DNA of 41,089 nt from Bacteroidia bacterium (lineage in GTDB: Bacteria > Bacteroidota > Bacteroidia > CAIKAF01). This document shows, in pieces, positions 14,489 through 40,860 of the stretch (position 1 is its first letter; the number at the start of each line of letters is the position of its first letter). The DNA is taken from assembly GCA_016742095.1 (NCBI GenBank), contig JACVCJ010000032.1:1-41089 (forward strand), given 5' to 3'. Position numbers and translations under genes: made by a program. The notes below the pieces were generated by a model, which was not told the DNA's origin, ran no database searches, and was given only the letters and a program-made list of their open reading frames with translations.

Positions 14489-14539
14489 AACGTTCGTTAA
14501 AAATATACCTACGTTCATTAACAAAATACCTACGTTCCT
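14489..14539 (+). promoter_or_regulatory. Three LytTR-type binding boxes at exact 21-bp spacing
   Basis: The boxes are AACGTTCGT (14489-14497), TACGTTCAT (14510-14518) and TACGTTCCT (14531-14539). The first two fit every position of the consensus I know for LytTR response regulators, [TA][AC][CA]GTTN[AG][TG]; the third misses one. The 21-bp period equals two helical turns, as for AgrA/ComE-type sites. The first two 21-bp units match at 17 of 21 bases. They lie 68-118 bp before the start of the T9SS cargo gene. Confidence 0.6.
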
Positions 14540-14606
14540 ATATTTCAACTTGACCGGCATTTACAAAAATTGGACATTGCTGTACTAATTTAAACTATTT
14601 ACTCTT

Positions 14607-15815
14607 ATGAAAAAAAGAAGCCTACTTCTGAGTGTGCTGACATTTTGCATCATGCATCTTGCATCGGCACAGGTCATCTCCCCGCAGCAATGTCAGGGTA
14701 TCTGTTCACAGATCGACATGAATATCGGGCCTCCGAGTAATGGCGGACCGATCACCAATCCCAACTGGTCGTACTCGCACGGCTCGCCCAGTATCGGTCC
14801 CGGCTGGTTCTGGCTCTGGTCCTACAATAATGAGGGCGAAGGTATTAATTTTTCAGGGTACAATTTTGTGGCCGGCCGCCAGTACTGCATCAGCTACCTG
14901 GCCACTACGTCCACGCACGACGGTTCTCCGGCCAATGCCAGCGCAGCATTCAACATTGTGGCCAGCAACGGCCCTGTGGTAGGCATTATCACGGGCGGCG
15001 GCGGTGCCCCGATCCCGGGGATCCCGGGTGGCGCACAGGTGGTGCACAACAAGCCCTGGAGTACGTTCTCCGGCGGCGGCCAGATAGGTAATACCGAATG
15101 GGTTACCTTTACCTTTACAGCTACCAGCAACTTCAACAACCTGTGGTTCTTCCCGTCTTCGCCTACCCTGCCCCAGGTTGAGATACAGGTTTCGCAGCTC
15201 ATTATCTGTGAAATTAACCCCTGCGAGGTGAACTTCTCCGTACAGATCGGTCAGTTCGGCGCTACACAGAGCACCATCGATGTGGTGGCCTGGCCGAATC
15301 CGGGCTATTATTTCTGCAACATGGAGATCTACCGTGAAGGTACCCTGGTGTATTCCGGCTCACCGGTAAGCTATATCGCACCTCCGGGCAACTACCGTGT
15401 ATGCGTTACCTTCTGCAACGAGCAAACCGGCCAGCGCTGCAGAAAATGCTTCGATTTCTGTATCGGTAAGTGGACGTCCTTTACGACCTCTGACCCGGTT
15501 GAATATCCCGACTCTCCAAAAAGCGGACCGATCGGTGCAGGAGACATTCCCGAAAGTACCAAAGAAAAACCGGTGCTGAACGAGCTCCGCATCGCCCCGA
15601 ACCCATCCAATGGAGAGTTCCGCGTGTGCGCCGCTGAAAACAGCATCATCAGCACCCTGGAGATCTACAATGCCGGCGGTGTACTGGTAAAAACCATGAA
15701 AGGCAGCAACAGCAATACCGTACAGGTCTCTATGGATTATGCCCCGGGTATTTACTTTGTAAAAGCCCGTCTGCAGGACGGTAAAGAAATGAATTCCAAG
15801 ATCGTACTGGAATAA
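14607..15815 (+). CDS. T9SS-secreted Cys-rich protein, paralog A
   Basis: The protein has 402 residues. A Sec signal peptide (about 1-22) leads into CQGIC and an N-terminal domain (about 30-205) with MNIGPPSNGGPITNP, SYSHGSP and GRQYCISYL motifs, resembling a jelly-roll binding domain (fold guess only). A second domain (206-290) ends in a dense cysteine cluster, C266, C270, C278, C281 and C285, with TGQRCRKCFDFC. A Pro/Ser linker precedes a C-terminal type IX sorting domain from about residue 328 (IAPNPSNGEF, then APGIYFVKARLQDGKE). It should be exported across the outer membrane and either anchored or released. A close paralog of the same length lies at 17224-18432. Function unknown; adhesion or glycan binding is possible. 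Confidence 0.85.
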   Translation: MKKRSLLLSVLTFCIMHLASAQVISPQQCQGICSQIDMNIGPPSNGGPITNPNWSYSHGSPSIGPGWFWLWSYNNEGEGINFSGYNFVAGRQYCISYLATTSTHDGSPANASAAFNIVASNGPVVGIITGGGGAPIPGIPGGAQVVHNKPWSTFSGGGQIGNTEWVTFTFTATSNFNNLWFFPSSPTLPQVEIQVSQLIICEINPCEVNFSVQIGQFGATQSTIDVVAWPNPGYYFCNMEIYREGTLVYSGSPVSYIAPPGNYRVCVTFCNEQTGQRCRKCFDFCIGKWTSFTTSDPVEYPDSPKSGPIGAGDIPESTKEKPVLNELRIAPNPSNGEFRVCAAENSIISTLEIYNAGGVLVKTMKGSNSNTVQVSMDYAPGIYFVKARLQDGKEMNSKIVLE

Positions 15816-16883: not shown

Positions 16884-17223
16884 ATCTTTTCATCAGTATA
16901 TTGCCGCACGGCTCAACAGGCAACAAGAGCGCCCCTCCGGGGTTTGAAGAACGGACGTTTTACCATTTCTGTCGCTTTCTTTATTCTTCCGGCTAACGGC
17001 TCTTCCTCCCTCATGTAAATAACTGTATACCAAAAGTGTACATATACATTGAAAGACCTGCATCCTGTTTTCAGACTTTTTCAGCCATTCGGAATATACG
17101 GAACGTACGTTTCTATAATTTCTGTCCACTTTCGTTCATAAACCATTCACGTTCATACATTTTAACCTCTCAATTCCATTCAAAAGCGGAACTTTCTTTC
17201 CTTAATCAAACAAAAACCTGAAC
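16884..17223. other. 340-bp intergenic region upstream of paralog B
   Basis: No coding sequence is supported. It separates the divergent DyP and paralog B genes. GTTC-type boxes resembling those before paralog A cluster at 17106-17156. A clear -7 box for paralog B was not found. Confidence 0.6.
17106..17156 (+). promoter_or_regulatory. Weaker LytTR-like boxes before paralog B
   Basis: TACGTTTCT (17106-17114), TTCGTTCAT (17131-17139) and CACGTTCAT (17148-17156) each miss one position of the LytTR consensus. Spacings are 25 and 17 bp, not the 21 bp seen before paralog A. The shared CGTTCAT core suggests common ancestry or control but is not proof. Confidence 0.35.
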
Positions 17224-18432
17224 ATGAAAAAACTTATCGTATTCGCCGCCGCGGCGTTGTTTTCAACGTATATGACGGCACAGGCACAGCAATGCCAGGG
17301 AAATTGTGTCGATGTAGACATGAACATCGGTCCGCCGAGTCACGGGGGCCCTATTACCAACCCGGACTGGTCGTACTCGCACGGTTCGCCCAACATCTCT
17401 CCTACGGAGTTCTGGGCCTGGTCGGCCAACAACTCGGGTGAGGGTATGAACTATTCCGGCTACAACTTTATTGCCGGCCGGCAGTACTGCGTTTCGTACC
17501 TGGTAACCACCAATACGCATACCGGTACTCCGCCCGATCCGAATGCGGCCTTTAACATCATTGCCACCAACGGACCGGTGGTGGGTTGGGTAACCCCGGT
17601 GGGCGGCGCTCCCATTCCCGCTACCCCGCCCGGCTCACAAACGGTGGACAGCAAGATCTGGAATACCTTTTTGGGCGGCGGCTTCGGCGGAATTACCGAA
17701 TGGGTGACCGTTACCTTCACGGCCATGAACAATTACAACAACCTGTGGATCTTCCCGTCCTCGCCGGCAGAACCTCCGGTGAACGTGACCGTACATGGCA
17801 TCCGCATCTGTGAGATCACCCCCTGTGAAGTTAACTTCTCTGTTGTACTGGGCGAATACGTACAGGGCAACCTGACCACGATCGACATTCTTACCCCCTG
17901 GCTGCAACCGGGTTATTACGTATGTAACGAGGAAATTTACTGGAACGGTCTGCTGGTCCACTCCGGTTTGCCGGTAAGCTACCTGGGACAACCCGGCAAC
18001 TATAGCGTGTGCGTAACCATCTGCAATAAAGAGACCGGGCAGCGCTGCCGTAAATGTTTCGATTTCTGCGTAGGTAAATGGACCACTACGGACATTGCCG
18101 TACCCGTTGATCCTGCCGATCCGAAAAGCGCCGAAATACGGCCTTCTACAGGTCAGGGCGTTCCGGAAGAAATGAAGGAGAACCCGCTGGCCGCCGGCGC
18201 TATGCTGCTTGTATCGCCCAATCCCGGCAATGGCGATTTCCGTCTTTCGCTGAGCAACAAAGCCACCATCAGCAGTGTAAGCGTATACAACAGCAACGGT
18301 GTTCTGGTACATTCCGCCAGCAGCAACAGCGATGTGGTGAACATGAGCTTCCGCGCCCCGGCCGGCATGTACATTGTAAAAGCGCGCCTGCAGGACGGCA
18401 AGGAAATTACCTCCAAACTGATCGTAGAATAA
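17224..18432 (+). CDS. T9SS-secreted Cys-rich protein, paralog B
   Basis: The protein has 402 residues, the same length as paralog A and roughly 60% identical by eye. It has a Sec signal peptide (about 1-22), a CQGNC start, MNIGPPSHGGPITNP, SYSHGSP and GRQYCVSYL motifs, and the same late cysteine cluster around TGQRCRKCFDFC. Differences concentrate in the Gly/Pro loop near residues 125-150, the linker (about 290-325) and the sorting tail. The tail (VSPNPGNGDF, then PAGMYIVKARLQDGKE) is a standard type IX signal. The strict conservation of cysteines points to disulfide-stabilised extracellular domains. Its own strong terminator follows. The pair looks like a local duplication with the DyP gene between the copies. 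Confidence 0.85.
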   Translation: MKKLIVFAAAALFSTYMTAQAQQCQGNCVDVDMNIGPPSHGGPITNPDWSYSHGSPNISPTEFWAWSANNSGEGMNYSGYNFIAGRQYCVSYLVTTNTHTGTPPDPNAAFNIIATNGPVVGWVTPVGGAPIPATPPGSQTVDSKIWNTFLGGGFGGITEWVTVTFTAMNNYNNLWIFPSSPAEPPVNVTVHGIRICEITPCEVNFSVVLGEYVQGNLTTIDILTPWLQPGYYVCNEEIYWNGLLVHSGLPVSYLGQPGNYSVCVTICNKETGQRCRKCFDFCVGKWTTTDIAVPVDPADPKSAEIRPSTGQGVPEEMKENPLAAGAMLLVSPNPGNGDFRLSLSNKATISSVSVYNSNGVLVHSASSNSDVVNMSFRAPAGMYIVKARLQDGKEITSKLIVE

Positions 18433-37927: not shown

Positions 37928-38199
37928 AGGCTACCGAATTAGCAGGATTCCGGGTCAAAAGAAGGAAAAAAAAACATGGTAACACCGAAGGTCTCGGGGA
38001 AAATACTAACAACAAAATTGACAAAAAAAGTACAGGCGAAAGCAGATCTTCCGTAAAAGGCCGATCCGGCACACATTAACGTACGGGATCCGGAGAGATG
38101 AAACGGCCTTACTTTTTGAAAATGAAGCTCTAAAACTTGCATTTTGCTACGAATAATTTGTACATTCACCCCGTTAAGCATTACAATGAACCCCACTTT
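37928..38199. other. 272-bp intergenic region between divergent TonB receptor and T9SS cargo genes
   Basis: AT-rich, no coding sequence supported. It must hold two promoters. TTTTG and TAATTCGG on the minus strand are imperfect -33/-7 candidates (spacing about 14 bp). Nothing else was recognised. Confidence 0.5.
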
Positions 38200-39237
38200 A
38201 TGAAAAAACACCTGTTCTCTCTCTGCGGCAGCCTTCTCGCAGGCGTTACGCTGCATGCCCAGACCATTACCGCCAGTGATATGCCCTCTGCCGGAAGTAC
38301 CTTTGTATTCTCTACCGTTTCTGTACAGGACATGCAGAATTCCGGCGCATACCTGGCCGCAGGTAACGGCATCAACTGGGATCTTTCGTCCTTTGCCCCT
38401 TCCGGGAACGATACCGATGCCTATGTAACTCCCGGCTCGGTGAACGGTGCCTATTCCCTGTTCTTTGGCTTTAATGCCTTCGGAAAGGAATTTGCCGGTA
38501 ACATCGGGGGCGGCATGCTCCCTATCAGCATCGAGGACATTTACGATTTTTACGATGTACAGAGTAACCAGTTCCGACGCAAGGGTATCGGCATGACCAT
38601 TACGGGGCTGCCCTTCCCGGCCCTGTACACACAGCCGGATATCGTATACGAACTGCCCCTTTCCTTCAGCGATACCTATACGCATCCGTTTGAATTTCAG
38701 CTGGCCGTGCCTACGCTCGGCACCCTCAAACGCAACGGGGTACGCACTTCGGTCGTAGACGGTTCCGGCACGCTGATCACGCCCGCCGGCACTTACAACA
38801 ACTGCCTGCGCGTACGTTCCGAAATTACCCAGGTAGATTCCATTATGACCCAGTTCGGCAATTTCGGTTTTCCATCGGAAAGTGTGGAATATACCTGGCT
38901 GGAGGCCGGTACCAAAGCGCCCGTGTTCTCGGTAACGGAAACCGGTGCAGCCGGGCAATCGATGGTGACCGAGGCCAAATACATGAGTGCCAGCCTCAGC
39001 ACTTCAGTAGAGAACTGCTTTGCCCCCGTGGAACAGCAGCTTTTCCCGAATCCCGCTACCGACCTGCTGCAGTTTACGATACCCGTGGAGCAGGACTGGC
39101 AGCTGATCGACATGAACGGACGCCTGCTGCGCAGCGGCAAAGCTACCGGCATGAGCCGCCTGGACATTTCCACCCTGGAACCCGGCACTTACTTCTTTGT
39201 GAACAATAAACAGAAGCATACTTTTATTAAGCAGTAA
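38200..39237 (+). CDS. T9SS-secreted protein of unknown function
   Basis: The protein has 345 residues from the ATG at 38200; the in-frame codons back to 38137 lie in the leader. The signal peptide (about 1-21, LHAQ) is followed by a beta-rich body beginning ITASDMPSAGSTFVFS, with INWDLSSF and a later TPAGTYNNCLRVRSEI, a pattern common in uncharacterised Bacteroidetes exported proteins. The C-terminal sorting domain begins near residue 283 (LFPNPATDLLQF, then LEPGTYFFV) and ends FIKQ. It lies 51 bp before the haem/copper enzyme gene on the same strand and the two tails end alike, so co-expression is likely. Confidence 0.8.
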   Translation: MKKHLFSLCGSLLAGVTLHAQTITASDMPSAGSTFVFSTVSVQDMQNSGAYLAAGNGINWDLSSFAPSGNDTDAYVTPGSVNGAYSLFFGFNAFGKEFAGNIGGGMLPISIEDIYDFYDVQSNQFRRKGIGMTITGLPFPALYTQPDIVYELPLSFSDTYTHPFEFQLAVPTLGTLKRNGVRTSVVDGSGTLITPAGTYNNCLRVRSEITQVDSIMTQFGNFGFPSESVEYTWLEAGTKAPVFSVTETGAAGQSMVTEAKYMSASLSTSVENCFAPVEQQLFPNPATDLLQFTIPVEQDWQLIDMNGRLLRSGKATGMSRLDISTLEPGTYFFVNNKQKHTFIKQ

Positions 39238-39288
39238 TTAAACCATCGGTCCAGCCCGTAGTCTAATTAGAAAACCTGTAACACAAAC

Positions 39289-40860
39289 ATGAAAAAACTT
39301 TCTCTGAACCTGCTCCTGGGTCTGCTGCCCTTATCGGCCGCACTGGCCCAGACACCCACCTGGTCGGGGGATGTGGCCACCATCGTGTACAATAACTGTA
39401 CAAAATGCCATAACAGCAACGGTATTGCGCCCATGCCCTTTGAATCGTACCAGAACGCCTACGATTTTTCCGCACAGATAAAAGTAGCGGTCGTGACCCG
39501 TGAAATGCCACCCTGGCCGCCGGACCGCAACTACCGCGGTTTTGCACACGAACGCACGCTTACGCCGCAGCAGATACAGACCATTTCCGACTGGGTGGAT
39601 GCCGGTTCTCCGGAAGGTAACCCCGCAGAGGCCCCGCCCGTTCCGAATTTCGGCGACGGTGCCGAACTGCAGACCTTTGATATGGAACTGAAAATGGCCG
39701 ACTACCTCGTAAACACCAATTATGACCTGTACCGCTGCTTTGTGATCCCCAGCGGACTGCTGCAGGAACGCTACATCAAAGATATTGAGGTTATTCCCGG
39801 CAACCGTGCCATTGTGCACCACGTACTGGTGTTCCAGGACCCCTCCAACGTACCGGTTACCCTCGACAACAACGATCCGGGGCCCGGCTACACTTCCTTC
39901 GGCAGCACGGGTTCGAACAACTCTAAACTGATCGCAGGCTGGGTTCCCGGCGGACGTGCCTTTTACTTTCCGTCGCAGATGGGCGTAAAACTGGACGCCA
40001 ATACCAATATTGTGCTGCAGGTGCACTATCCCGGCGGCACCTATAACCAGACCGACAGCACCAAGGTCCGTATACGTTTTCACCCGGGTGCGGTGCGCCC
40101 CCTGGAAGTGAACCCGCCGCTGAACCACTACGACCTGGACAACGGCCCGCTGGTCATTCCCGCCAACCAGACCAAATGGTTCTACGCACAGTACCAGGTG
40201 CCCGCACAGTACAATGTATCCGTGCTGAACATAGCACCGCACATGCACCTGATCGGTAAAAAGATAAAAGTATACGGTGTTACCACCAGCTCCGATACCA
40301 TTCCGCTCATCAAGATCGACGACTGGGACTTTCACTGGCAGGGTTTCTATGCCTTTAAGAACGTACTGAAGATACCGGCCGGCACCATCCTGCACGCCGA
40401 AGCCTGGTACGACAATACCACGGCCAATCACGATAACCCGAGCAGTCCGCCGCAGACCGTAACGGCCGGCGAGGGCACAACGGACGAAATGATGCTGGTG
40501 TACTTTACGTATACGCTCTACCTGCCCGGTGACGAGAACATATCCCAGGAAACGGCGCCGACCACGGGTGTGGACGAAAGCGAGGCAGCCGGTATTATCT
40601 CCGGCATGCAGATGTACGATCTGTATCCGAACCCCGCAGGTACCGAGATCAATGTATCCTATGCATTGCCTTCATCGGGCATGCTGCAGTACCGTATTTA
40701 CGACCTCAACGGCAAAGCGCTGCTGAACGGCAGCTACAATGCATCCGGAGGCGGAATACTGACCCAGAAGATACAGGTAGAATCCCTGCAGCCGGGTACG
40801 TATATCATTACCTCAGAACATAAAGGGGTGGTAAAAAGCCGCAAGTTCATAAAACAATAA
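39289..40860 (+). CDS. Secreted cytochrome c/PHM-like copper monooxygenase with T9SS tail
   Basis: The protein has 523 residues. The signal peptide is about 1-20. The first domain (about 25-105) has a haem c site C37-x-x-C40-H41 and REMPPWPP (71-78). The second (about 125-415) resembles the PHM/dopamine beta-monooxygenase copper fold. It has His177-His178 and His246 as candidates for one copper site, and His318 and His320 in PHMHLIG plus Met401 or Met402 in TDEMMLVYF for the other, the complete six-ligand set in the expected order. A type IX sorting tail (about 442-523, LYPNPAGTEI, then LQPGTYII) follows. Family enzymes hydroxylate C-H bonds with O2 and ascorbate; here the haem domain could supply electrons. 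The substrate is unknown. A terminator follows the gene. Confidence 0.88.
   Translation: MKKLSLNLLLGLLPLSAALAQTPTWSGDVATIVYNNCTKCHNSNGIAPMPFESYQNAYDFSAQIKVAVVTREMPPWPPDRNYRGFAHERTLTPQQIQTISDWVDAGSPEGNPAEAPPVPNFGDGAELQTFDMELKMADYLVNTNYDLYRCFVIPSGLLQERYIKDIEVIPGNRAIVHHVLVFQDPSNVPVTLDNNDPGPGYTSFGSTGSNNSKLIAGWVPGGRAFYFPSQMGVKLDANTNIVLQVHYPGGTYNQTDSTKVRIRFHPGAVRPLEVNPPLNHYDLDNGPLVIPANQTKWFYAQYQVPAQYNVSVLNIAPHMHLIGKKIKVYGVTTSSDTIPLIKIDDWDFHWQGFYAFKNVLKIPAGTILHAEAWYDNTTANHDNPSSPPQTVTAGEGTTDEMMLVYFTYTLYLPGDENISQETAPTTGVDESEAAGIISGMQMYDLYPNPAGTEINVSYALPSSGMLQYRIYDLNGKALLNGSYNASGGGILTQKIQVESLQPGTYIITSEHKGVVKSRKFIKQ

Follow-up and report, generated by a model that had tools for sequence, protein, structure and literature searches.

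Which regulator, if any, acts on three evenly spaced boxes that precede a T9SS cargo gene in a 41,089-nucleotide contig of a Bacteroidia bacterium (JACVCJ010000032.1, the whole of which is referred to here as the window), and what else in the genome might share that control? LytTR proteins bind 9-bp direct repeats that lie about 12 bp apart, so that successive starts are 21 bp apart and the repeats share one face of the DNA. An initial annotation had read the boxes as LytTR sites, and re-reading of the sequence confirmed their description: all three contain ACGTTC and follow one another at exactly 21-bp steps (direct repeats with 12-bp spacers, Table 1), and the first two 21-bp units are identical at 17 of 21 positions. 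Scored against the LytTR consensus [TA][AC][CA]GTTN[AG][TG], the first two boxes fit fully, as claimed, and the third departs from it at one position. Within the 490 bp upstream of the gene, three boxes reach a maximum score of 26/27, a value that none of 3000 dinucleotide shuffles reached, whether the spacing was held at 21 or allowed to take any value from 15 to 30. The ORF check of the window found no open reading frame of at least 90 aa over the boxes (14489-14539).

The assignment of the downstream gene as T9SS cargo also held, since its product carries the sorting domain PF18962 (Por_Secre_tail) at 2.5e-10, above the cut-off; its N-terminus, MKKRSLLLSVLTFCIMHLASAQ, looks like a signal peptide. 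A predicted structure (pLDDT 68, beta-rich) yielded Foldseek TM-scores of at most 0.30 and no fold assignment. The cargo load of this genome is heavy, with 42 CHU_C and 147 Por_Secre_tail matches (about 190 sorting-domain matches in 3.7 Mb), so the presence of a cargo gene downstream of the array is weak evidence by itself. Two further T9SS cargo genes lie in the window at 38137-40860, one of them with copper type II monooxygenase domains, and box scans found no ACGTTC arrays 5' of either.

Table 1. Boxes, promoter elements and cargo genes in the window
Feature	Coordinates	Strand	Sequence and description
LytTR-like box 1	14489..14497	+	AACGTTCGT; consensus 9/9; 118 nt 5' of ATG
LytTR-like box 2	14510..14518	+	TACGTTCAT; consensus 9/9; 97 nt 5' of ATG
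LytTR-like box 3	14531..14539	+	TACGTTCCT; consensus 8/9; 76 nt 5' of ATG
-7-like element	14539..14546	+	TATATTTC; consensus TAnnTTTG; overlaps last base of box 3
T9SS cargo gene	14607..15815	+	402 aa; 11 Cys in mature region ahead of sorting domain
Sister-gene box 1	17106..17114	+	TACGTTTCT; consensus 8/9; 118 nt 5' of ATG
Sister-gene box 2	17127..17135	+	CACTTTCGT; consensus 7/9, without GTT; 97 nt 5' of ATG
Sister-gene box 3	17148..17156	+	CACGTTCAT; consensus 8/9; 76 nt 5' of ATG
Sister-gene -7-like element	17156..17163	+	TACATTTT
Paralogous T9SS cargo gene	17224..18432	+	402 aa; 56% identical to 14607..15815 product

The array was originally placed before one cargo gene, and it is indeed present there, but it is not unique: a second array, missed at first, begins its boxes at 17106, 17127 and 17148, upstream of a paralogous gene whose product likewise carries PF18962 above the cut-off. 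This sister array is weaker, but its 12-bp spacers and its distances to the ATG are identical to those of the first. When the two upstream regions are aligned without gaps, the best match falls at offset 0 and spans box 1 to the -7-like element, a block in which the two genes share 36 of 59 positions, compared with 14 of the 59 immediately preceding. At the fixed offsets predicted from the first array the sister boxes score 23/27, which 0 of 20000 shuffles reached; considered without that positional prediction the score is less striking, being equalled by 10 of 3000 shuffles at spacing 21 and by 182 of 3000 at any spacing. Because the two proteins are only 56% identical, neutral upstream DNA should by now be scrambled, and we therefore read the array block as conservation within one genome. 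The same comparison bears on whether the array might be a functionless 21-bp tandem duplication, arisen by chance or slippage, with the sister array a leftover of gene duplication. The near-identity of units 1 and 2 is what a young duplication would leave, and in other genomes of the class this core recurs in 21-bp tandem arrays that are long repeats, of which many fall in open frames. However, the upstream DNA of the two genes is scrambled, as expected for proteins this divergent, except in the array block, and the 21-bp units of the sister array are dissimilar among themselves while their position and core are retained, so that we regard such an origin as highly improbable.

If the boxes are LytTR sites, the regulator would have to act from outside the window, as the initial annotation proposed, and a profile search found 17 LytTR domains above the cut-off in the genome and none on this contig. 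The pair pattern ACGTTCNT-n13-ACGTTCNT occurs without mismatch at only two, overlapping, places in the 3.73-Mb genome, both in the first array of the window. With at most one mismatch it occurs at 12 places. A codon-usage gene caller puts 6 of these in intergenic DNA, of which the two window arrays contain three, a LytTR/T9SS locus on another contig (C7) contains two, and one lies elsewhere. When a sequence-only model derived solely from the four window pairs was applied out of sample, the top other place in the genome was again at this locus (C7:22057), with a modest E of 0.54 genome-wide and of 0.037 within a 252-kb subset. An excess of a looser pattern in the genome (74 matches against 19) was dropped as support for an operator reading, being made up mostly of coding matches, 46 of 57 of which are antisense.

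The C7:22057 array begins 114 nt 5' of the ATG of a T9SS cargo gene of the CHU_C type, downstream of which come PorP/SprF and OmpA-like genes and next a gene for a LytTR response regulator (LytTR2). The other flank of this operon carries a second gene for a LytTR response regulator (LytTR1, L069 4477-5244) and, adjoining it in convergent orientation, a histidine-kinase-like gene. The C7 pairs have 12-bp spacers, the two best of them differ from the window pattern by one mismatch each, and box 3 of the cargo promoter is degenerate (AACGGGGAT). A pair, TTCGTTCGT-n12-TACGTTCAT, lies 368 nt 5' of the likely ATG of LytTR1. By a rough estimate, chance would put two pairs of the C7 type between the genes of a single LytTR locus, out of 17, in fewer than one case in 1000. 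The recurrence of the pair in intergenic DNA beside two LytTR response regulators and a cargo operon, and the sister array at identical distances, support the original proposal of LytTR-type control of T9SS cargo with the boxes as candidate sites, and the C7 genes, which adjoin the closest matching boxes, provide a candidate regulator outside the window.

We hypothesize that each of the three boxes, which overlie the promoter region of the cargo gene at 14607, serves a LytTR-domain response regulator as an operator half-site, and that together with the related arrays 5' of the sister gene and of the C7 CHU_C operon they define a small regulon of T9SS cargo genes, whose regulators are probably those encoded on C7; on present sequence evidence we put the probability of this reading at about 0.6. 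The likely regulators would be the two related LytTR proteins that flank the C7 operon (42% identical to one another), with the neighboring histidine-kinase-like protein as a candidate sensor. LytTR1 has Asn at the phosphoacceptor position, which is Asp in seven further LytTR regulators of the genome, one of them LytTR2; LytTR2 would thus be the better candidate for phosphorylation. The 21-bp pair 5' of LytTR1 suggests feedback, and autoregulated LytTR systems (PMC6193735) similarly carry such a pair before a regulator gene. It is tempting to go further and to speculate, at somewhat less than even odds, that a few T9SS cargo proteins are controlled, via three-box arrays that overlie the promoter core, by a dedicated two-component circuit of LytTR type whose genes sit beside the cargo/PorP/OmpA operon and at its end, and that one of the two regulators of this circuit has a receiver that could not be phosphorylated at the usual Asp.

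Alternatively, the array may be a LytTR-type operator that belongs to another of the LytTR regulators, its resemblance to C7 being incidental. Fifteen LytTR domains besides the C7 pair could bind such sites, and ACGTT cores are not limited to C7: on contig C42 (L062 5190-5219) the pair TACGTTTAT-n12-TACGTTGGT separates a LytTR regulator gene from a divergent neighbor without a Pfam family. That pair, however, has two mismatches to the window pattern, against one in each of the two best C7 pairs, and in the window-only model the C7 cargo site is the top-ranked match and C42 is absent from the list, so we consider assignment to another LytTR regulator unlikely. The spacing itself may be more widely used than the letters. 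Among 14 intergenic box pairs at LytTR loci (spacings 12-40) four have a spacing of exactly 21, a count limited to the LytTR-locus subset because counts over wider loci are biased by the choice of loci. On contig C70 (L065 6116-6066, minus strand) three ACGGTTC boxes follow one another at exact 21-bp steps 5' of a fatty-acid hydroxylase gene, which is closely followed by a kinase gene and then by a LytTR regulator gene. Taken together, this array and the spacing count suggest that other LytTR regulators here may share the geometry with other letters.

The position of the boxes relative to the promoter was read from a -7-like element that follows each array. Among gapped words of its form, TAnnTTTG is the strongest 5' of genes in this genome (84 occurrences against 16 expected, 5-fold), in agreement with the flavobacterial sigma-A -7 box (PMC9723704), and TTG lies 18-23 bp ahead of it in 23 cases against 0.4 expected. 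The element of the sister gene, TACATTTT, is also found 5' of the C7 CHU_C gene, and TAYATTTY is common to the three arrays in one register, starting from the last base of box 3. The best ungapped match of the C7 cargo promoter to the upstream region of gene 14607 is nonetheless displaced by one 21-bp unit, which leaves the register of C7 with respect to that gene unsettled. With TATATTTC (14539) as the -7 element, box 2 would lie over -33 and box 3 in the spacer. None of the three target promoters has TTG at the -33 distance, a place occupied by box 2, and this would fit a promoter that is either protein-dependent or repressed; with a -7-like element retained and box 2 in place of the TTG, we weakly favor activation, while repression is possible.

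These promoter elements also bear on whether the boxes might bind a regulator of a different family or be themselves tandem promoter elements, with TACGTTC as a degenerate TAnnTTTG. TACGTTC does resemble TAnnTT, and a spacing of 21 bp would accommodate any dimer that binds along a single face of the DNA. Yet TACGTTC is barely enriched 5' of genes (5 against 2.4) where TAnnTTTG dominates, a separate -7-like element comes after the array in all three promoters, and the best out-of-sample match adjoins LytTR genes, all of which makes either variant quite unlikely.

With the boxes taken as LytTR operators, the arrangement can be set against known ones. Like the operators of AgrA, ComE and HdrR it consists of 9-bp boxes that fit the consensus, in direct orientation with 12-bp spacers. 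It differs in having three boxes where those have two, and in its targets, T9SS cargo genes in a Bacteroidota-type genome. It would differ too in position: described LytTR repeats have a spacing of 11-13 bp and lie 4-11 bp upstream of -35 (PMC6193735), and those of AgrA lie near -60 (PMC4227749), so that a box over -33 and another in the spacer would be unusual for the AgrA/ComE-type arrangement initially suggested, if the -7 element is correctly inferred. A 51-bp defined operator, a named regulator pair and three target promoters make cargo-specific T9SS control directly testable, in a genome in which LytTR regulators are abundant.

No LytTR control or LytTR binding site tied to T9SS cargo was found in the open papers searched, and PorX, which does act on T9SS genes, does not belong to the LytTR family. 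Known regulation of T9SS runs through PorX/PorY and SigP (PMC8050853, PMC4800418), which in Porphyromonas gingivalis also involve a two-component system over T9SS genes. PorX, however, is tied to an ECF sigma factor and controls the secretion machinery, whereas the sites described here precede cargo genes and a cargo/PorP operon; cargo-specific LytTR control would stand beside PorX/PorY-SigP control of the machinery. The SM4/SM5 promoters of remFG-sprCDBF in Flavobacterium psychrophilum are similar in that a surface adhesin operon linked to T9SS has dedicated control there (PMC9723704), but they are sigma-factor motifs and not LytTR-type direct repeats.

Orthologs of the cargo protein were sought in 60 relatives, where no match extended beyond the sorting domain, in a wider genome-contig search, which gave none, and in 395 genomes of the class, which gave none apart from one partial, weak match (G312, 9.8e-9). 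Close orthologs of LytTR1 and LytTR2 were likewise not found, the LytTR regulators recovered being distant (25-31% identity) and without PorP/OmpA neighbors in the stretches examined, and the footprint accordingly rests on one genome. The box pair itself is present in 9 of the 395 class genomes, not above a reversed-pattern control (counts by eye), and was set aside as support, since there it mostly marks long 21-bp tandem repeats. Loci L241, L247, L244 and L250, from other class genomes, are long tandem arrays whose 21-bp units have ACGTTCRT as their core and spacers that differ from genome to genome; several of these arrays lie within open frames.

Within the genome under study, two other Por_Secre_tail cargo genes are weak leads and possible further members of the regulon. 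Before one lies a partial array at C27:1720 (L237 1501-1530) with a single clear box; before the other, at C30:159117 (L108 2117), lie ACCGTTCAT and TCCGTTCGT.
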